A stretch of 64,000 nucleotides of DNA. It comes from Candidatus Gracilibacteria bacterium. Its GTDB lineage: Bacteria; Patescibacteriota; Gracilibacteria; BD1-5; UBA2023. Positions 31,630 through 46,565 of this stretch are shown one piece after another. The number at the start of each line of letters is the position of its first letter. The stretch's first letter is position 1. The DNA lies in NCBI GenBank assembly GCA_028687475.1, contig JAQUAB010000001.1, positions 248,001 through 312,000 of the forward strand, read 5' to 3'. Below the pieces are notes generated by a model. It had not been told where the DNA came from. It saw nothing but the letters and a program-made list of their open reading frames with translations, and did not search any database. The position numbers and the translations under genes are program-made.

Positions 31630-33348
31630 ATGTTCGAATTCTTGAGTCTCGTCGACTGGTCTCGTGCGCAATTCGCACTGACCGCTGGATTCCATTGGAT
31701 TTTTGTTCCGTTCACGCTCGGTATTACGTATATCATCGCCACTATGGAGACGATATATTTCGTCACTGGAAGTGAGATGTGGAAAAAAATCACTCAGTTC
31801 TGGACAAAAATTTTTGCCGTCAACTTCGCTGTCGGAGTTGCAACGGGAATCATCCTTGAGTTCGAATTTGGAACGAACTGGTCGAACTATTCTTGGTTCG
31901 TCTGAGATATATTTGGTGCACCACTCGTGATCGAAGGACTCGCTGCCTTCTTCCTCGAGACCACATTTCTCGCAGTGATGCTCCTCGGATGGGATAAAGT
32001 GAGTAAGAGATTCCATCTCGCATCTGCATGGATTGTTGCTTTCGGTGGATCATTCTCAGCCGTATGGATTCTCATCGCGAATGGTTGGATGCAGCATCCA
32101 ACAGGAATGGTATTCAATCCTGACACGCTCCGAAATGAGATGATCAATATGTGGGGGGTAGTATCCAACCCTGTTGCACTCACGAAGCTTTTCCATGCCC
32201 TTTCTTCTGCCATCACTCTCTCAAGTGTCGTTGTCATTGGTATTAGTTCATGGTATCTCCTCAAGGGAAGAGAAAAAGAGTTCGCATACAAAACAATTGC
32301 TCTTGTTTCGATTTTTGGAGCTGTCGCTTCTATCATGAATATTATCGCTGGTGATCTCGCTGGAAAGGATATGGCAAAATACCAGCCAATGAAAGTGGCA
32401 GCTGTGGAAGGTCTCTATGAATGAGGAACTCATGCGGGATTTGCTCCATTTGCATTCTTCGGTGAACAGAAAGCCGACGGAACTCGCGATGTTCTCTGGG
32501 AAATGAAATTTCCTGGAGTTCTCTCTTGGCTTCTTTTTGGTGACACTAATGCCTATGTTCCTGGTATCAAAAATCTCCTAGAATGAGATCCTGCACATGG
32601 AATCGTCTCAGCTCCAGAGCGTATCCGCAATGGAAAAATCGCTATCGAAGCACTCAAACAGTATAAAGAATATAGCAAAAATGGAGATACTATCAGCGCA
32701 CAAATAGCACTCAATGAATACAAGAAATATGAGAAAGATTTCGGATATGGCTATTTCGATGAGAATAATCTCGGGGAACTCGTACCAAATGTTCCATTCC
32801 TCTTCTGGTCGTTCCGTTATATGGTCGGGCTCGGATTCTTCATTGCCCTCTTCTTCCCTCTCATGTGGTGGCTTGCACACAAGAGAACGCTTGAGAAATA
32901 TCGTTTCCTTCTTCTTTTTGCGATTATTCTTATTCCATTCGTCTATATCTCTTCTGAACTCGGCTGGGCTGTCGCAGAAGTCGGACGTCAACCATGGATT
33001 GTCTATGAAGTTCTCCCTACCAAGGCAGCCATATCTGCAACAAGCACGACGAATGTTGCACTTATATTTATCGGATTCTTCCTCATATTCACAACACTCT
33101 TCATTGCTGCATTCCGCATTGCTCTGAATCAGATAAAAGTTGGACCAAAAATCGCAGAAAAAGCAACAAAAGATGACAATGAAGATGAAGATGAAACAGC
33201 TCAAAAAGAATCTATTCAACCTGCTCCAGCCAAAAGAAAAGCTCCAGTCAAAAAACCTGTTCCAAGAAAGCCAGCAGTAAAAAAAGTCGAGGAAACAACA
33301 GAAAAACCAGCTCCAAGAAAAAGAGCACCGAAGAAACAAGCAGAATAA
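31630..33348 (+). CDS. cydA: Cytochrome bd ubiquinol oxidase subunit I
   Basis: Quinol-oxidising, heme-carrying subunit of bd oxidase, reducing O2 to water. His in [14 protein letters not shown] near residue 22 (heme b595 ligand region), EFEFGTNW, His in [10 protein letters not shown] near 190 (b558 ligand), Q-loop start [17 protein letters not shown] near 255, Met in [10 protein letters not shown] (b558 ligand) and [13 protein letters not shown]. Three TGA codons, at Gly positions (WFVGDIFG, LYEGGTH, LLEGDPAH). An unusual ~60-residue Lys/Pro/Ala/Glu-rich C-terminal tail, probably cytoplasmic, is not part of the catalytic core. The leader before the ATG is pyrimidine-rich. Confidence 0.95.
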
Positions 33349-33391
33349 TCATGATTCCTTTCTTTTCATATAATTCCTAATTTTCTTCACT

Positions 33392-34561
33392 ATGTTCGAA
33401 ACGCTTTCCACTCTGGAACTCCAACAATATCTCTGGTTCATTATCTCATTCATCGGTGCAGGACTCGTATTCATGCTCTATGTCCAGTGAGGCCAGACGC
33501 TCGCGATTCTCCTCGCGAAGTCAGAAGCAGAAAAAACCGAAATGCTCAATACCGTCGGAAAACGCTATGAGATCACCTTCACTTCTCTCGTGACATTCGG
33601 TGGTGCATTCTTCGCAGTATTTCCACTTTTCTATTCGACTTCATTCGGTGGTGCATTCTTCGTTTGGTTCGCGATTCTTTTTCTCTTCATCATCGAAGGT
33701 GTCTCATTCAAGTACAGGAAAAAGGTAGGAAATTTTCTCGGAAAAAAGACATACGAAGTATTCCTTCTCTTGAATGGAATAGGTGTCCCTCTCCTTATTG
33801 GTGTCGCGGTCGCCACATTCTTCACAGGTGCGAACTTCCATGTCGAGAAAACAAGTCTTCTCTCAGGTGATACCGTATCTGTATGGGATAGTGCATGGCA
33901 TGGACTCGAAGCTCTTTGGAATCCACTCCAGGGTGCATGGCTCACGAATATTTCTTTTGGTGTTGCGATTGTCCTCCTGACAACGATTCTTGCGAGTCTC
34001 AATATCATCAAGAATATCAACGATAACGAACTCGTCGCAAGAGCCCGAAAATATCTCCTTCCATCAACACTCTTTTTTCTCGTATTTTTCCTCTTCTTCC
34101 TCTACAAGATTCTCACAATAGACGGATTCGGTTATGATCCACTCACAGGGGTTGTTTCTATGAAAGAATTCAAGTACCTGCATAATCTTCTCGAAATGCC
34201 ATTCGTCACAGCAGGATTCGTCTATGGAGTTCTCATGGTGGTTCTCGGAATCGTTCTCGGATATTTCACGAAGTTCCGTCGAGCATTCTGGTTCTCGGCA
34301 CTCGGAACATTCTTCGTAGCACTCACACTCCTTCTCTTCGTCGGATGGAACAATACTGTTTTTTATCCTTCTCTCACTGATCTTCAGAGTTCACTCACGA
34401 TAGAAAATGCTTCATCAAGCCGCTACACGCTCATAGCAATTTCTTATGCATCACTCCTTGCGCCTGTGGTTCTCGCATATATCTCATGGGTATGGAACAA
34501 GCTACGAGATGACGGCATTGGGAAAGATATCATGAATGAAAAATCCGGAAGCACCTACTAA
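33392..34561 (+). CDS. cydB: Cytochrome bd ubiquinol oxidase subunit II
   Basis: Second membrane subunit of bd oxidase. It begins FETLSTLELQQYLWFIISFI, followed by MLYVQGGQTLAILLAKSEAE with the Gly of the conserved GGQ encoded by TGA, then NTVGKRYEITFTSLVTFGGA. Nine or so transmembrane segments, SFKYRKKVGNF and WHGLEALWNPLQGAWLT, then a late SLTIENASSSRYTL loop. 389 residues, normal. Lies 43 nt after cydA and ends just before a terminator. Confidence 0.93.
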
Positions 34562-34611: not shown

Positions 34612-35139
34612 ATGTCTACCCCAACACTCATCATCTACGCCACCACCGACGGTCACACTCAGAAGATTGCAGGTGTCATCCGTGACACGCTCGAATCCAT
34701 GGATCACGAGGTTGATGTACGAAATGTTCTCGAAGAGCCTGTTGACCTCACGGGATATGACAAAATCATTGTCGGCTCCTCTATCCGCTACGGCTACCAC
34801 CACAAATCGATAGTGAAGTGGATTGATGCTCATGCGGAGGAACTATCACAGCGAAAGAATGCCTTCTTCTCCGTGAATCTCGTCGCACGAAAATCCGAGA
34901 AATGCACCCCCGAAACCAATCCCTACGTGCGGAAATTCCTCGCGAAAATCAAGTGGAAGCCACAACTCTCTGCCGTGTTCGCGGGCAAGCTCGACTACAA
35001 TATCTACAATTGGTTCGATGCGTTCATGATCCGCCTCATCATGCGAATGACAGGATGACCTCTCGAAACTCCAGAACCCATCGAGTTCACCGATTGGGAA
35101 CAAGTGAAGAAGTTCGCAGAGGAGGTGGGGAGACTCTAA
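34612..35139 (+). CDS. hemG: Protoporphyrinogen IX dehydrogenase (menaquinone) HemG
   Basis: Flavodoxin-like, quinone-dependent oxidase of protoporphyrinogen IX. It aligns end to end with E. coli HemG: LIIYATTDGHTQKIAGVI, VGSSIRYGYHHKSIVKWI, FFSVNLVARKSEKCTPETNP, YVRKFLAKIKWKP and FMIRLIMRMTGG, where the second Gly of GG is TGA. 175 residues. It depends on a quinone pool that CydAB would reoxidise, linking heme synthesis to O2 reduction. The stop overlaps the convergent gene by 4 nt. Confidence 0.94.
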
Positions 35140-36631: not shown

Positions 36632-38011
36632 TTACACCAACTTCGAATACACCCCCTTCCCTTCCGTGTAGGCAGGATTAAGTGTAGTGGCGATGTTGCG
36701 GATGAAGAACATACCGAGTTCCGTGACAGAGATAATATCATTTTCATATTCCATGAGTCCGTCCGCGACAAACTCGTCGAACATATTCGGCGAAAATTTG
36801 GTGAGTTTTTTTATGTCTTCTGTACTTTGGTTGTATCGATTCGCGATGATAGAGAAATCCAGATATCCATTGCACATGAGTTCCGTGATGATGTCGCGGA
36901 TGACTATCTCATCCTGATTCAGAACGTATCCCTTCTCTATCGGGAGTTGTCCTGCTTCCAGTGTAGCAGTATACGTCTCGATATCTTTCACATTCTGGAT
37001 GTAGCTGCCGGTGAGTTGAGTGATAGCCGACGTCCCGAAGGCATAGACCTGACCCGTCGTATCACGCGTCGCATACCCCTGGAAGTTGCGATGAAGTGTG
37101 TGGTTTTGGAGTGCTACTTCGAGTTCATCTCACGGCAGAACATAGTGATCCATTCCGATTTCGATATACCCAGATTCCCTGAGAAAAGCACGAGAACGCG
37201 CAAACATCTCCATCTTGTCCTCGGCGGTTGGGAGCCCGATTTTCTCGAGCGCGAGTTGGTATTTTTTTACCCAGGGCACATGCGCGTAGGAGAACGTCAC
37301 GAGTCGGTCAGGGCGAATCTGGATTGCTCGTTCGATAGTCGCGAGAAAACTCTCTGTTGTCTGACCAGGAAGTCCGTAGATGAAGTCAAGATTCACTCCG
37401 AGTTCTGGATGTTTTTCTCGGATATAGGTGACGAGGTCTTCGATAGGAAGTCGGGATGGCAGTCGGTGAACGTTGGCGAGGATGCGTTCATCAAAGTCCT
37501 GTACACCGATACTGATGCGATTGAATCCTGCATTCACCAAGCCATCAATATATGCAAAGTCCAAGTGTGCAGGATGACATTCGATCGCGATTTCTGGATT
37601 CTCAGTAAACTCGAATTGACTGTGGAAAATGTCGTTGATTGCTCAGAGTTGGTCAGTCGTGAGAATATTGGGCGTTCCACCGCCGTAGTGAATCTGAGAA
37701 ACTTTTCGGTTCTTATCGAGATGGGCGGTGATAGTTTGGATTTCTTTTTTGAGTGCTTCGAGATAGATATCGACAGCGCTCTTTTCTCCGAGTTTTATCT
37801 GATTGCACCCGCAGTAGAGGCATATCTGCGCACAGAACGGAATATGCACATAAAAGGAAATATTGCTCGGTTCATCGTGATTGGATGACTCGATGAGTTC
37901 GAGATACTGCTCGCTCGTAACACCAGCGTGAAAATAATTCGCGGGCGGATAGCTCGTGTATCTCGGAACGGGAGTGTTATACTTGTCGAGGAGGGGTTTT
38001 GGGATGTGCAT
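36632..38011 (-). CDS. hemN: Oxygen-independent coproporphyrinogen III oxidase HemN
   Basis: Radical-SAM enzyme converting coproporphyrinogen III to protoporphyrinogen IX without O2. The N-terminal PVPRYTSYPPANYFHAGV, the [4Fe-4S] motif HIPFCAQICLYCGCNQ near residues 57-72, GGGTPNILTTDQL, IGVQDFDERILANVHR and DFIYGLPGQTTESF are all diagnostic. TGA codons at three Gly positions. 459 residues matches E. coli HemN. The conserved C-terminal wing domain ends RNIATTLNPAYTEGKGVYSK. It is transcribed away from the hemCDE operon. Confidence 0.95.
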
Positions 38012-38716: not shown

Positions 38717-39625
38717 ATGCAAACTATCCGCATCGGAACCCGCGAAAGCAAGCTCGCCATCTGGCAAGCAGAATACGTCCAAAAAGAAATCGAAAAACTC
38801 GGCATCAAAACAGAACTCGTTTTTATCAAGAGTGATGGAGAAAAAGATCTTGTTTCGCCACTGTATGAGATGGGGGTTCAGGGAATTTTCACCAAGACGC
38901 TCGATATCGCCCTCCTCGATGGTCGCATCGATATCGCGGTACATTCGCTCAAGGATGTCCCAACCAAATTGCCAGAAGGAATAATTCTCGCGAGTGTGCC
39001 GAAGCGCGGGAATTATGGAGATATACTCATTCATAAAGGAACTCTTCCAGAAGAAAGTCTCGAATATGTGATTGGAACGAGTAGTTTACGACGTCGAGCC
39101 CAATGGCTCAATCGGTATCCAACTCATGCGACCGAACCGCTTCGTGGAAATATCCAGGCTCGTCTCGAGAAGCTCGAGAAAAATACTCACTGGAGTGGAG
39201 CAATTTTCGCTGCGGCAGCGATAGAAAGACTTGGACTCGAAATAGAAAATACTGTTGCTCTGGACTGGTTATTACCAGCTCCCGCCCAATGAGCTCTCGG
39301 AATTACTTGCCTGGAAAAAAATAAAGAAGTTATCGAACTCTGTCGTGCATTCAATGACCGTGACACAGAACTTGCGACGTATATCGAGCGCCAATTCCTT
39401 CGCACGCTTTTCGGTGGATGTTCGATGCCGATTGCTGCGCTCGCCGAGTTCGATGGTGACTATTGTGATTTCCGTGGAAATATCCTCACGACCGATGGAC
39501 GTGAAAAAGTCGAAGTCGAGCTTCGAGTTCCTCGTGATGAAGCCATGACTCTCGGAGAACGCGCAGCCGAGGAAGTGATACGAAATGGCGGTGAAGCGAT
39601 ACTGAAAACATTTAATCGAATGTAA
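38717..39625 (+). CDS. hemC: Hydroxymethylbilane synthase HemC
   Basis: Polymerises four porphobilinogens. MQTIRIGTRESKLAIWQAEY at the start, VHSLKDVPTKLPEG near residue 75, GTSSLRRRAQW near 115, and the dipyrromethane-cofactor Cys in FGGCSMPIAA near 235. One TGA gives Gly in APAQGALGI, invariantly Gly in the family. 302 residues. First gene of hemC-hemD-hemE, all on the plus strand. Confidence 0.96.
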
Positions 39626-39650: not shown

Positions 39651-40331
39651 ATGAATCAACCCATTCATCTCATCAGTACGCGAAGGCTGAAACCAGAAAA
39701 CAAAGAAAAACTCGAGAAACTCGGATTTTCTATCGAAGATTATGATTTTGTCGAGATTCAGCATACGCTCGATGCGCACAAGACAGAAATCCTGAAGAAA
39801 AATATTTCTCCTCTCGTATTCACGAGTCAGAATGCCGTGCGATCAATCGAAGGAATTATTCCAGAACTTTCACAGAAACAAGCTTTCGCAATCGAAGGAA
39901 TAACCGCAGATGAAGCGAAAAAAGCATGACTCGACGTGGTCGGAACTGCACGCGATGCGAGCAATCTCGGAATCATCATTATCGATTCGGCGCCAGAATC
40001 TGTCCTCCATGTGACGAGCAATATCCGCAGAAATGAGCTCGAAAGAGAACTCTCAGAAGCACATATTGCAATACAAATTCTCGAAGTCTATGAGAAAATC
40101 CCAAAACCAAGAAAAGTAGAAACACTCGATGCAATGCTTTTCTGGAGTCCATCCCAAGTAGATGCATTTCTCGTTGAGAACTCACTTGATCCTGAGGCCC
40201 TGATTTTCTCGATCGGCAATACCACAACTATTCATCTTCGCAGACTTTTTTTCGAGAATGTCATCACTATAGCGGAATCGAGTGAAGAAAATATGCTAGA
40301 AACTGTTATAGCCCATTTTGCTCAACCATAA
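39651..40331 (+). CDS. hemD: Uroporphyrinogen-III synthase HemD
   Basis: Cyclises hydroxymethylbilane to uroporphyrinogen III. Sequence is divergent as usual for this family; it reads IHLISTRRLKPENKEKLEKL, SPLVFTSQNAVRSIEGI, LHVTSNIRRNELERELSEA, VYEKIPKPRKVETLDAMLFW-like SPSQVDAF and IFSIGNTTTIHLRR. Position between hemC and hemE supports the call. TAA overlaps the hemE start codon (TAATG). Confidence 0.9.
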
Positions 40332-41356
40332 TGAATACAAAACCACTCCTTCTTCAAGCCCTCAATTGAGAATCAGTAATACGTCCACCCGTCTGGTGCA
40401 TGCGCCAAGCGGGACGATTTCTTCCTGAATATCGCGAACTCCGAGACAAGTATGATTTCTTCACTCGAGTTCAGACTCCAGAACTCGCAACTGCCATCAC
40501 ACTTCAGCCCGTCGATATCCTCGGAGTAGATGCGGCGATTCTTTTTTCTGATATTCTCGTCGTACCACAAGCGATGGGACTCACGGTTGAACTCATCGAA
40601 AACAAATGACCATTTCTCCCGAATACTATCCGAACGAAAGAAGACATCGAGAAACTCTCATCGAATGCAGCGGATAATCTCAGATATGTCTATGATGCTA
40701 TTCGTCTGACGAAATGAGAACTAGAAAAAAGATGAATCCCACTTATCTGATTCGCGGGTGCACCGTTCACCCTTCTCTGTTACATGGTCGAGGGAAAAGG
40801 AAGCAAGACGTTCGATAAAGCGAAGAAGTTCTGTCTCACAGAACCAGCACTCGCTCATGCACTTCTCGAGAAAATCACTGATATCACAATTGCATATCTG
40901 AAAAATCAGGTAACGGCTGGAGTGGATGTGGTACAGGTTTTCGATAGCTGGAGCGGACTTCTCTCTCCTGAGGATTTCCGACTTTTCGCACTTCCCTATC
41001 TGACTCGGATTGCTGATGAATTGGCAGATATCATCCCTGTTATTCTCTTCCCAAAAGGCAGCAACTACGCGCTTACAGAACTCTCCCGAACTCGCGCGAA
41101 TGGAATCGGGATTGACTGGACTATCACACCAGAAGAAGCAAGGAAAATGACAGGAGGAAATATCACTCTTCAATGAAACTTCGACCCAAGTCATCTCTAT
41201 CTCCCACCAGAACAAATCGAGCAAGAAGTCCACGAGATGATTCGCCGATTTGGCACTGACCGATACATCGTCAATCTCGGTCATGGTATACTCCCAGATA
41301 TCCCGGTAGAGCATGCGAAAGCATTTGTGAATGCGGTGAAGAGTTATCGAGGATAA
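40331..41356 (+). CDS. hemE: Uroporphyrinogen decarboxylase HemE
   Basis: Converts uroporphyrinogen III to coproporphyrinogen III. The signature [20 protein letters not shown] is near residues 18-37, [12 protein letters not shown] near 75, [17 protein letters not shown] near 135, [10 protein letters not shown] near 200 and [15 protein letters not shown] near the end. Six or more TGA codons at Gly positions, e.g. ALNGES, IENKGPFLP and LIGFAGAPF. 341 residues, typical. Last gene of hemCDE. Confidence 0.96.
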
Positions 41357-42118: not shown

Positions 42119-43135
42119 ATGCCCAACAAATCCCTCATCCTCATGAATATGGGTGGTGCCACCACCAAGACAGAACTCGAAATGTTTCTCCTGAATATGT
42201 TCCGCGATCCGAATATCCTCACGATTCGGAGTGATTTTTTCCGTGGACTTCTCGCGCGATTCATCACGAAAAAGCGCCTCGATGCCTCATGGGCGAACTA
42301 TGAGAAAATCGGTGGTTCTCCCCTTCCTGCCATCACCGATGAACTCGTGAAGAATCTCCAGAATCAACACGAAGATATATTGGTGCGTTCGGTGATGACT
42401 TATACTCACCCGACGAATAATGAAGTCATCGAAGAACTCCGAGAAAAGTGAATCCAGGAAATTACTCTTTTTCCGCTCTATCCTCACTATTCCACCACGA
42501 CAGTGAAGTCGAGTGTTGATTCATTTCTCGATACAATGAGAAAAGCGAGACTCGTTCCTGTTATTCTGAATGAAGCAGAGCGAAGTGAAGCATCCAGAGT
42601 ATCTGAGAACACAATCGCCGTTCGTATCATCGAACCTTTTTATAGAAACGAAAGATACAACAATATTATCATTGAAATTATCAGGGGAATATTATCTCAG
42701 ACAGAAAGAGATTCTCCAAAGGAGAATGACAAAAACGAATACGAACTCGTTTTCTCAGCGCACGGACTTCCAGAGAAAATCGTGAAAAAATGAGATCCTT
42801 ACCAATCCCAGATCGAAGATCATGTAGCAATCCTCACGAGAAATCTCAGAGAAAGAAACATACATTTCTCAGGAATCCATCTCGCCTATCAGTCACGCGT
42901 GGGCCCGATGAAGTGGATATGACCTTCACTTCATGAGAAACTCGGAGAACTCTCTGGGAAAAAAGTAATCATCTTCCCACTCTCGTTCACCATCGACAAC
43001 AGCGAGACGAAATTCGAGCTCGACATCGAATATCGAGAAATCGCTGCTGAACACGATATATCAGAATATCATGTCTGTCCTTGTCCGAACGCTCGATGAG
43101 AATTCCAAGATTTCTTGAGTTCATTTCTCGAGTAA
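42119..43135 (+). CDS. hemH: Ferrochelatase HemH with two in-frame repeats
   Basis: Inserts Fe2+ into protoporphyrin IX. LILMNMGGATTKTELEMFLL, NMFRDPNIL, GGSPLPAITDELVKNL, LFPLYPHYSTTTVKSSVD, and the metal-site segment FSAHGLPEKIVKKGDPY. SRVGPMKWIGPS and SFTIDNSETKFELDIEYREI follow. Residues about 148-160 (NEAERSEAS) and 197-206 (DSPKENDKN) are translated repeats, located before and after EPFYRNERY where homologues have short loops. TGA codons at EKGIQE, KKGDPY, WIGPS and NARGEF. Stop TAA 43133, followed by a terminator. Confidence 0.94.
42561..42597. repeat. REP-like half-unit in hemH
   Basis: ttattctgaatgaagcagag continuing to agtgaagcatccag is the half-palindrome type seen between genes, here in frame. 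A second unit, gattctccaaaggagaatgac, lies at 42709-42736. Confidence 0.75.
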
Positions 43136-43288: not shown

Positions 43289-44527
43289 ATGAACAAGGAA
43301 AAAGTTGTCATTCTCGGTTCTGGTTTTGCAGGAATTCGTACTTTTCGGAATCTCGCGTGCAAAAAACAATTCGAAATCACAGTGGTCGATAAACGAAGTT
43401 CTATGCTCCTCAAACCTGTACTTCCTGAGATTGCTTACGATGGAAAAGATATTGCGGAAGCAAGTTTCGAACTCAAAGGCGTTATCGAAAAAAATGGTCA
43501 TACATTCATACAATCTGCTGTAAAACTCATCGATCCGAAAGCTCAAACAGTCGCACTCGAAAATGGCGAAACTCTCAGTTATGATTATCTTTTTGTCACC
43601 ATGGGTGCACATAAGGATTTCAACGCTATTCCTGGTCACGAAGAATTCGGATATTCTGTCTGTGACGATGTTCATGCAGAGAAGCTCGCCAAAGCCGTAG
43701 AAAACTTCCAAGGTGGAAAAATCGTCATCGGTTCTGCCCAGTCAAAATGGGGAACTCGCGTGTCTTGTCCTCCGTTCCAGGCTCCATGTGAAGGACCAAT
43801 CGGTGAATCTATGTTCATGTTGCATCATCTTCTCTCTGAGAAAGGACTCCGCGAGAAGACAACTATCGACGTCTTCACGCCAGGAGAGATTTTCTTCGAA
43901 GATATCGGAAATGATGTTCGTGGTGCTGTCGGTGGACTCATGAGCATGAAGAATATTCCTCTACACCTCTCGAAAGTAGCCAAAGAAATCACAAAAGAAG
44001 GAATCAAATTCGAAGACGGAACAGAACTTCCTGCGGATATGGTGATCATGATTCCTGTCTACAAGGGACACCAGGTTCTTATCGATTCTGGTCTTGGTGA
44101 TGAGAAATGATTCATGCCAACCAATGAAGAGATGCGTCATCTCGACTATCCAAATATCTTCGCGGCTGGTGATCTCAATGCGATGACTCAGCCAAAACTC
44201 GGTCACCTCGCGATGATGCAAGCTGATATTGCCACTTCCGCTCTCATGAAGGAAGTAACTGGAACGGGCGAAGTTCTCAAATACACTCCAGAAGTCTATT
44301 GTATCATGAATATGGGTGGCGGTGAAGCAGGATGTGTCTACTCAAACATCTACTTCAAACCAGAAAATGGTACTGATATCGTATGGCACAATAGATACAA
44401 TGCATACTGGAAAAAAATTCTCGATAGTTATATGCTCTATGGAAAAGGTCGTATTCCTCCACGTTGGGCTGAACACATGTTCAAGATGATGATGGTCAAG
44501 CTCGGATTCGGGAAGAAAGGAAAATAA
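43289..44527 (+). CDS. NDH-2/SQR-type FAD-dependent oxidoreductase
   Basis: Two-dinucleotide-binding-domain flavoprotein of 412 residues that would pass electrons to quinone. N-terminal FAD motif VVILGSGFAGIRTFRNLA, TVVDKRSSMLLKPVLPEIAY, LFVTMGAHKDF and the second FAD motif FAAGDLNAMTQPKLGHLAMM. Cys at RVSCPPFQAPCEGPIGESMF near 160-175 and Cys in GGGEAGCVYSN recall sulfide:quinone oxidoreductases rather than plain NADH dehydrogenases, so both remain possible. A Lys-rich amphipathic C terminus (MMMVKLGFGKKGK) would bind the membrane. One TGA, in DEKGFMP. Followed by a terminator and by ApbE and FMN lipoproteins on the other strand. Confidence 0.83.
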
Positions 44528-44611
44528 TATCTTTCCCCAAGAGTACGAAGTACGATTGGTGAAGAAAGATATTATCCTGAGGTGAAACCGAAGGATCTCT
44601 CCAGATAATAT
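44528..44611. repeat. Two palindromic repeats after the flavoprotein gene
   Basis: The first has arms tatctttc / gaaagata (44528-44571) and the second arms tattatc / gataata (about 44569-44610) enclosing cctgaggtgaaaccgaagga. They separate the flavoprotein gene from its terminator. Confidence 0.6.
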
Positions 44612-44640
44612 AAATCGCTCATTCTATGGGCGATTTTCTA
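44612..44640 (+). terminator. Terminator between convergent flavin genes
   Basis: Stem AAATCGC / GCGATTT with a short T-run; it serves the plus strand and possibly apbE on the minus strand. Confidence 0.7.
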
Positions 44641-44641
44641 T

Positions 44642-45532
44642 TTATAAGAATAATTCCGATTTGCTCATCTTCGACTGATAAAAAGTACCATCATATCGCA
44701 CCAAAACGCCTTCAATCTCAGGAATATTCTCGAGCATCTCACATGCCATTTCCCATGGCATCACAGAAAGTGCGGTCGCATAACTATCTACACAGATTCC
44801 AGAAGTTCCTTCGATATAAGTCGCAACGACATCCTTCGCAGATTCTCCAGTCTTTGGATTGACAAGATGATGACTATTCCCCCATTTTCGCTTCGTACCA
44901 GCGCTACAAGCCAAGAAGCTCTCATCCAATATATATGTTCCGACAATCTCCTCACTCGAAAATGGACTCTCCAATCCTACTTTCCAACCACCTCGACCAA
45001 AAAGATCACCTCAAAAGTTGATGAGAAATCGTGGATATTTTTCGAGGATTTCTTTCAGAACATCGATCAAGTATCCCTTCCCTACTCCACCAAATTCGAG
45101 CTCAATATCTTTTCCGAGAGTGATACTTTTCTCCTGCAGAAAAATATCGCGATAATCTCCTCCACCTTTCGTCTCTGAACTTGAGAGAATATCATCAAAA
45201 ATATTTTCACTTTTCCGAATTTCCGTTTCTCGATTCCCATAACCAAGATCTCGTAGTCTTTTCCCAATCGTCGGATCGAAATATCCATCCGTTTTCTGCG
45301 CTACTTTGAGTGCGAATGAAAGCATACGGACAGCATCTTCATCGAGAATTCCTTTTCGAGAAATGTTGAGATTATGGAGCCAATTCCCGGGAATAAAACG
45401 AGAAAAATTCTGTTCAAAATCTTTTAATCGTTTTTCTATCAGTAAAAAATCTTCATCCACCGAAGTCGGCGAAGAAGACTCCAATCGAATCAAAAGATGC
45501 GTCCCAATAATATCAAGATCAAAACAATACAT
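44642..45532 (-). CDS. apbE: FAD:protein FMN transferase ApbE
   Basis: Attaches FMN covalently to Thr of exported proteins. It shows FSRFIPGNWLHNLN, GYFDPTIGKRLRDLGYG, the key EFGGVGKGYLIDVLKEILEK, LINFGGDLFGRGGWKVG with Gly by TGA, and SAGTKRKWGNSHHLVNPKTG near the C-terminal. SGICVDSYATALSVMPWE follows. 296 residues, TAA 44642. There is no signal peptide, unlike many periplasmic ApbE proteins. It is 3 nt downstream of an FMN-binding lipoprotein, its obvious substrate. Confidence 0.92.
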
Positions 45533-45535
45533 ACA

Positions 45536-45979
45536 CTAGAGTGATTGAATGAATTTCTCGAAGGCGGCAGTCGTGAGAGAGGCCCCGCCAATCGTATCTA
45601 TAGAAAAATCTTTCACTGATTTTCCGACGACTTTTCCAGAAACTCCTGATGCAAAATTATCTTGGTTATATTTGGAACCATCATTGGTAGCAAGTGTCCG
45701 AGAAGATGCTGCTGTGATGATGCCATTCTCAACGGTCACAGAAAACTCTACGTCGTCCATGCCCGCTGGAGATCGATATTGCACCACACGAGTCGTGGTC
45801 ATTGCCGTTGCAGACGAGGTAGATTCTGAACCTGAAAGCATATCAGGAGACGAAGTTCACGTCGAGATGGGAATATTTCTTTCTCCTGAAATAGAAGACA
45901 TCTCATTCGGATGAGTACAAGATGCAAGTGTAGAGATTGATGCCAAGAGAACTAGTGGAAGGAGAGCCGATGATTTCAT
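45536..45979 (-). CDS. FMN-binding lipoprotein 1
   Basis: 147 residues. The signal peptide MKSSALLPLVLLASISTLAS ends at a lipobox Cys. A Ser/Thr-rich linker is followed by an FMN_bind domain: VEFSVTVENGIITAASSRTL and the flavinylation motif DTIGGASLTTAAFEKF at the C terminus, the Thr being the expected ApbE target. One TGA in the linker. Ends TAG 45536 just before the apbE start, so the two are one operon. Likely a surface-anchored one- or two-electron carrier. Confidence 0.88.
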
Positions 45980-46055
45980 AAAATGGGTGTTAAAAAATAC
46001 TCACAAACGCGAGTATAAAGACTTTATAAAATAAATCAATTTTTATTCTGAGTTT

Positions 46056-46565
46056 TTAGATGCCGTTCACGAACTGTTCGAAAGCGGCAGTCGTGAGAGA
46101 GGCTCACCCAACAACATCGAGATTCAGTTCACTTGTCTTTTTTCCTACAACCGCAGAAGCAATACTTCGAGAAAAAGCACTCTGATATTTCTGATCATCA
46201 TGATCTCCTGACTGGAATGTGGCACTTGCAGCGGTGATAACTCCATCCTGAGTCGTCACAGAAAATTGTGTAGTTGTACTTCCATGATGAGATGGACTTG
46301 CATATGAAACCGTTTTTGTAGTTGTTGTTGGGGTGGTAGAACTCTCTACAGAAGAAGATGTTGTGATGGAACTCTCTACAGGAGTAGCTTGAATCTCCAC
46401 TGAAGAAGTCGAAGAATCTGTGACAGAGGAATCTGAAGAAGTAGTCTGATCTCACCCTTGTGGTCCACCAAAAGTACAAGAAGCAAGAAATGAGAGACAT
46501 ACAAGTCCGATAACAATAGTGAATATGAAGGTTTTGACAACAAGTGAATATGAAGGTTTTGACAT
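46056..46565 (-). CDS. FMN-binding lipoprotein 2
   Basis: 169 residues. Membrane leader and lipobox VIGLVCLSFLASC, a long Ser/Thr/Val linker (about 60 residues) and an FMN_bind domain TTTQFSVTTQDGVITAASAT ending VVGGASLTTAAFEQFVNGI, with the motif Gly encoded by TGA. Paralogous to lipoprotein 1. The first codons come from a 20-nt direct duplication (gaatatgaaggttttgac twice, 46521-46563) that lengthens the N terminus. Confidence 0.87.

Follow-up and report, generated by a model that had tools for sequence, protein, structure and literature searches.

Does a flavoprotein gene that adjoins the gene of a flavin transferase and those of two putative flavin-binding lipoproteins belong with them in a single module for extracellular electron transfer (EET), as a preliminary description of this DNA had supposed? 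The locus (43289–46565) lies in the window, i.e. the whole stretch of 64 000 nucleotides analysed here (C1:248001-312000), which comes from a genome of 1.06 Mb in 5 contigs (96% complete). It holds the genes of a sulfide:quinone oxidoreductase (SQR), of ApbE, which transfers flavin mononucleotide (FMN) from flavin adenine dinucleotide (FAD) to proteins, and of the lipoproteins LipA and LipB. Judged from the sequence, and with a probability that we put at roughly 0.72, the locus would comprise two independent redox units that meet tail to tail: a flavinylation unit, lipB-lipA-apbE, and SQR, which would form a respiration unit with the cytochrome bd oxidase genes cydAB.

Two convergent units

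The adjacency of a quinone-type flavoprotein, ApbE and two lipoproteins with a GGASLTT motif, as given in the preliminary description, is confirmed by the coordinates, by the match of ApbE to PF02424 (127.6 bits against a cut-off of 25.6; 8e-37) and by the GGASLTTAAFE with which both lipoproteins end. Transcription on the minus strand runs from lipB (46056–46565) through lipA (45536–45979) to apbE (44642–45532), the lipA stop and the apbE start being 3 nt apart, and sqr (43289–44527; 412 amino acids) lies on the plus strand, tail to tail with apbE at a distance of about 110 bp. Since SQR and apbE are convergent on opposite strands, SQR is not part of the apbE operon. Between them lies an inverted repeat (44612–44636) that is terminator-like on the plus strand; such sites are as frequent in shuffled sequence as in the real one.

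Counts of orthologues and of co-occurrence refer to a set of 99 genomes of relatives, and those for the phylum to 380 genomes. A clear SQR orthologue is encoded in four of the 99 (the present genome, G411, G451 and G437), four further listed matches being weak (24–29% identity). In all three SQR-bearing relatives from the order the gene lies near cydB-cydA and on the same strand, with no ApbE nearby: the genes adjoin in G451, are separated by two small open reading frames (ORFs) in G411 and by four genes in G437. The cydA gene was found in 7 of the 99 genomes, among them all four with SQR (Fisher p = 9e-6, uncorrected for phylogeny), and ApbE is associated neither with SQR (p = 0.41) nor with cydA (p = 0.65). 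The proposal that SQR and ApbE act as one system was therefore rejected on the grounds of strand, neighbours in relatives and co-occurrence, the flavoprotein tracking cydAB and not ApbE.

All four genes carry in-frame TGA codons and are uninterrupted only in code 25, in which TGA encodes glycine; the standard genetic code was rejected because TGA breaks every gene. Gly284 of the flavoprotein, encoded by TGA, aligns with a Gly of the solved homologue 3h8i. NCBI table 25 is the code of SR1 and Gracilibacteria, and the source presumably belongs to the code-25 lineages of that kind in the candidate phyla radiation. The SQR gene holds one in-frame TGA, a codon rare in this genome, against 11–12 in the SQR genes of G411, G451 and G437; TGA-glycine usage thus varies widely inside one order.

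Identity of the flavoprotein

The best solved match of the flavoprotein is 3h8i (5e-54), deposited under the name NADH oxidase, which we take to be the SQR of Acidianus ambivalens. Its Cys129, Cys178 and Cys350, presumably the active-site cysteines of the A. ambivalens enzyme, align with Cys125, Cys167 and Cys338 of the present protein (positions counted by hand from the alignment). None of the latter three varies among the four Gracilibacteria-type orthologues, whereas the extra Cys of VSCPP does. The second dinucleotide-binding (Rossmann) stretch, GGKIVIGSAQS, is without GxGxxG. Among NCBIfam models the nearest is that of type III SQR (SQR_III), which scores under its cut-off (134 vs 525 bits); the A. 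ambivalens SQR has been classed as type V (PMC9666304). Queried with E. coli ndh, the genome gave the SQR gene as its sole match (5.6e-7), and an NDH-2 identity is ruled out by the match to 3h8i and the invariant SQR cysteines, so that of the two identities offered earlier (NDH-2/SQR) only the latter stands. By these sequence criteria the flavoprotein is an SQR. It resembles the type III/V enzymes (3h8i) in fold, FAD motif and three conserved Cys, but departs from them in falling below the SQR_III cut-off, in its linkage to cydAB and in belonging to a cell without detected quinone synthesis.

The lipoproteins and the presumed flavin acceptor

LipA and LipB both have signal sequences with a LASC lipobox and a putative FMN-binding domain, C-terminal in LipB; the shared motif reads DTIGGASLTT in LipA and DVVGGASLTT in LipB. 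Throughout the 1.06 Mb genome GGASLTT occurs in just these two ORFs, which argues against chance and bears out the earlier observation that they share it. The Pfam model FMN_bind (PF04205) scores LipA below threshold (17.4 bits vs 22; E 0.007) and does not match LipB, and a search of the genome at 1e-3 gave no match, so a lipoprotein family was built from relatives. This family (34 sequences from ApbE neighbourhoods in many families) has invariant Gly132, Ser134 and Phe140 (LipA numbering); FMN_bind is matched by 16 of its 34 members (at 0.01), and the top PDB match of its profile is the FMN-binding domain 8p2a (0.005). Residues 60–147 of LipA were modelled by AlphaFold (AF2) as three strands and two helices with a pLDDT of 96–98, and Foldseek ranked 8p2a first for LipA (prob 1.00, TMt 0.64, E just 0.017) and, more weakly, third for LipB (prob 0.90). 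The family profile, the 16 matching homologues and the AlphaFold/Foldseek result support an FMN-binding domain in LipA.

ApbE modifies Thr or Ser of D-x-x-[S/T]-G-A-[S/T] (PMC12052999), which DTIGGAS and DVVGGAS fit except at position 4, where Gly stands for Ser/Thr. The Ser of GGAS is the sole position that fits the flavinylation motif, so that the presumed FMN acceptors are Ser134 of LipA, invariant in the family, and Ser156 of LipB, and not the motif Thr to which the flavin had previously been assigned.

An ApbE without signal peptide

Ser210, His222 and Asp249 of ApbE are kept in 56–58 of 58 sequences and would correspond, matched by order and context, to the catalytic Ser-His-Asp of the enzyme (Vc 241/257/285; PMC12052999). 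The GT motif begins at residue 10, compared with residue 43 in E. coli ApbE, and 48 of 57 ApbE homologues across the phylum have fewer than 25 residues N-terminal of it. Likewise, N-terminal hydrophobicity is ≤ 2.0 in 56 of the 57, against 2.7 in E. coli ApbE; start codons are ambiguous in the exception and in several others. Calls of signal peptides were based on sequence inspection and hydrophobicity rather than on a trained predictor, and by them the present ApbE appears to lack a signal peptide and to be cytosolic. In almost every pair the substrate has either a lipobox or a hydrophobic anchor at its N-terminus, and essentially all of the related loci checked combine a signal-less ApbE with substrates that are exported and anchored.

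A tatC query of the genome found no match, which makes Sec the likely route of export. A cytosolic ApbE would move FMN from cytosolic FAD onto the conserved Ser in the C-terminal domains of LipA and LipB; the flavinylated proteins would then be exported by Sec, lipid-anchored outside the membrane, and act there as one-FMN electron carriers. We infer from these features that flavinylation would precede export. Extending this to the whole phylum, with ApbE inside the cell, the FMN-bearing lipoprotein or membrane-anchored protein exported afterwards and an FAD exporter needless, is a tentative proposal to which we give somewhat less than even odds. The cytosolic ApbE of Klebsiella, which serves fumarate reductase (PMC12052999), is likewise without signal peptide, but its substrate is soluble and cytosolic, whereas those considered here are exported lipoproteins.

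The Listeria locus for flavin-based EET (FmnB, PplA, Ndh2, EetB/FmnA) shares with the present one an ApbE beside FMN-binding lipoproteins. In Listeria, however, the ApbE (FmnB) works outside the cytosol and depends on EetB/FmnA for the export of its FAD (PMC9973259), whereas ApbE here has no such export signal, the locus has no Ndh2 and the genome has no match to a UbiA-family (demethylmenaquinone) prenyltransferase. A search of the genome for RibU-like genes, a check suggested in the preliminary description, gave no match to PF12822, the family of RibU-type energy-coupling factor (ECF) substrate subunits; this family may not cover EetB, and the EetA, EetB and FmnA sequences themselves were not searched. 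A signal-less ApbE would make the exporter EetB/FmnA needless, in keeping with the lack of PF12822. The likeness to the Listeria gene set fails, and a Listeria-type EET module with the adjoining flavoprotein is not supported.

Partners in relatives and a candidate electron donor

ApbE is encoded in 83 of the 380 phylum genomes and in 56 of the 99 near relatives; a contig search with ApbE found distant Bacteroidota only. Of 40 ApbE neighbourhoods, 26 hold a lipoprotein homologue and 32 a protein of the membrane-reductase type, the latter being a single-linkage cluster and hence mixed in make-up. Among ten representatives of this cluster, Pfam recognised four as NqrB/RnfD-like, of which one scored below the cut-off; a further three were MsrQ-like with FNR domains, two had NAD-binding domains alone and one was without any domain. 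Loci L107 and L109 each hold a GGASLTT lipoprotein, ApbE and an MsrQ-like protein with an FNR domain together. The preliminary description had held that conserved neighbours in relatives pointing to Na+-NQR or another use would refute its proposal, and the NqrB/RnfD-like or MsrQ-like neighbours come close to this; for the present genome, an Na+-NQR/Rnf partner is ruled out, as neither rsxA-E matches nor PF03116 were found in it. Large (454–646 amino acids) secreted-looking proteins lie beside ApbE and an MsrQ-rubredoxin gene at L172:6523-8142, L175:8792-10729 and L179:9071-10432; they match the lipoprotein profile weakly and are possibly multi-flavinylated.

The single MsrQ-like (PF01794)-rubredoxin-FNR fusion of the present genome, whose MsrQ-like part is a membrane domain of the ferric-reductase kind, is encoded at C1:33271-34722 and keeps two invariant His and four rubredoxin Cys. 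It adjoins no flavinylation gene: PF01794 is clustered with ApbE in relatives, but not here. Within the family, ApbE and MsrQ-like proteins co-occur (18/4 versus 1/4, p = 0.017, phylogeny ignored). LipA and LipB would most likely be reduced by NAD(P)H through this MsrQ-like (haem b)-rubredoxin-FNR protein, which we regard with moderate confidence as the likely donor, and would hand electrons to some extracytosolic acceptor. As far as sequence conservation can tell, ApbE and the two lipoproteins are a conserved flavinylation unit, which probably serves extracytosolic electron transfer.

The respiration island

Upstream of SQR, and outside the ApbE operon, the window holds an island that begins with the genes of cytochrome bd oxidase (31630–34561, 9 kb from SQR), cydA for subunit I (31630–33348) and cydB for subunit II (33392–34561). 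It continues with hemG (34612–35139; menaquinone-dependent protoporphyrinogen IX dehydrogenase, 219.9 bits against a cut-off of 142), hemN (36632–38011; oxygen-independent coproporphyrinogen III oxidase), hemC (38717–39625; hydroxymethylbilane synthase), hemD (39651–40331; uroporphyrinogen-III synthase), hemE (40331–41356; uroporphyrinogen decarboxylase) and hemH (42119–43135; ferrochelatase) and ends with SQR, all on the plus strand except hemN, which is on the minus strand. Of the 99 genomes, just this one and G451 have hemC, and both carry SQR and cydA. In G451 (98% complete, 7% contamination) SQR, cydA and hemC are present and no ApbE was detected, which sets the two units apart.

SQR would oxidise sulfide and reduce quinone, cytochrome bd would re-oxidise the quinol with O2, and the haem for the oxidase would come from the intervening hem genes; the island of cytochrome bd, late haem genes and SQR would in this way let sulfide oxidation drive O2 reduction. 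No UbiA-family prenyltransferase (PF01040) was found in the genome, and ubi and men queries gave no ubi match and none for men except a weak one for menF. The quinone is therefore probably imported from a host or prey, and SQR would presumably work with this imported quinone. Queries with hemA and hemB found no match in the genome and that with hemL matched one gene, which may be another aminotransferase; the encoded part of haem synthesis begins with porphobilinogen, apparently imported.

Alternative readings

The notion of a single EET-like module, in which the flavoprotein would reduce quinone and the flavinylated lipoproteins would draw electrons from it to an outside acceptor or a partner cell, draws on physical adjacency, on the flavin redox nature of both parts and on the possibility that SQR feeds a quinone pool. 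We consider it very improbable, given that the genes are convergent, that SQR stands with cydAB and not with ApbE in three relatives (G451 having SQR and no detected ApbE), that SQR and ApbE are not associated and that no UbiA, PF12822 ECF subunit or NDH-2 was found in the genome. Little credence can also be given to the view that the lipoproteins are degenerate FMN_bind relics without covalent flavin, in spite of the ApbE that is present: the FMN_bind score of LipA is below the cut-off, LipB is unmatched and GGAS replaces [S/T]GA[S/T], but the motif Gly, Ser and Phe do not vary across the 34 sequences, which come from many families, ApbE directly adjoins in most loci and the fold of the LipA domain is predicted with high confidence. 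Assimilatory ferric-iron reduction by the lipoproteins, with the MsrQ-like protein as NAD(P)H-linked reductase and a demand created by the nearby haem genes, is consistent with the two-unit reading, from which it departs in the acceptor alone. Some bacteria show a link between VIT1 iron transporters and flavinylation clusters that include MsrQ-like or NQR/RNF-like proteins (PMC8238504), and haem-making genes do lie nearby; no iron transporter gene was recognised in the operon, however (VIT1 was not searched for), and elsewhere in the genome there is just a weak FeoB-like match (1.7e-5), so that we hold this acceptor to be rather unlikely.

Several points weigh against the preferred reading of two independent units with the partners proposed above. 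The co-occurrence p-values carry no correction for phylogeny, and the association of ApbE with MsrQ-like proteins is not significant over the whole order (p = 0.11). Homologues of the MsrQ-rubredoxin protein in code-25 relatives usually lie beside a different ApbE subfamily and not beside the orthologue of the present ApbE, which makes the donor assignment weak. The flavinylation motif has Gly at the canonical Ser/Thr position, and its first Asp is missing in many homologues. To our knowledge, Sec export of a protein that already carries FMN is not established. Finally, with no UbiA homologue the quinone must be external, or SQR must use another acceptor.

Relation to known flavinylation systems and significance

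Flavinylation systems with MsrQ-like and NQR/RNF-like proteins were described by Meheust et al. 2021, and NQR/RNF-like clusters have already been reported partly from the candidate phyla radiation (PMC8238504). Common to them and the present system are ApbE and an FMN-binding protein that is small and extracytosolic; in relatives an MsrQ-like or NqrB/RnfD-like membrane protein linked to NAD(P)H is shared as well. The present system differs in that the membrane reductase of this genome lies outside the operon and includes a rubredoxin domain, the export signal of ApbE is missing, and FMN_bind scores mostly below the Pfam cut-off with an invariant Ser acceptor. The component parts are of known kinds, and the topology is unusual. 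In the openly licensed literature we found no description of a phylum-wide pattern in which a cytosolic-looking ApbE serves substrates that are exported and anchored (weak evidence), no paper on Patescibacteria and flavinylation and, for the candidate phyla radiation, EET and FMN-binding, the 2021 survey alone. That survey called the underrepresentation of flavinylation in the candidate phyla radiation striking (PMC8238504); as a signal-less ApbE here goes with mostly sub-threshold FMN_bind domains, part of this underrepresentation may be an artefact of detection.

Should flavinylation indeed take place in the cytosol first, the sequence of events would be the opposite of that accepted in Listeria and Vibrio, and with ApbE acting before export the external supply of FAD, an open question in other systems, would not arise. 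For the second unit, a chain from sulfide through quinone to cytochrome bd in cells with no apparent synthesis of quinone or of the first haem precursors would make their dependence on a host directly testable.

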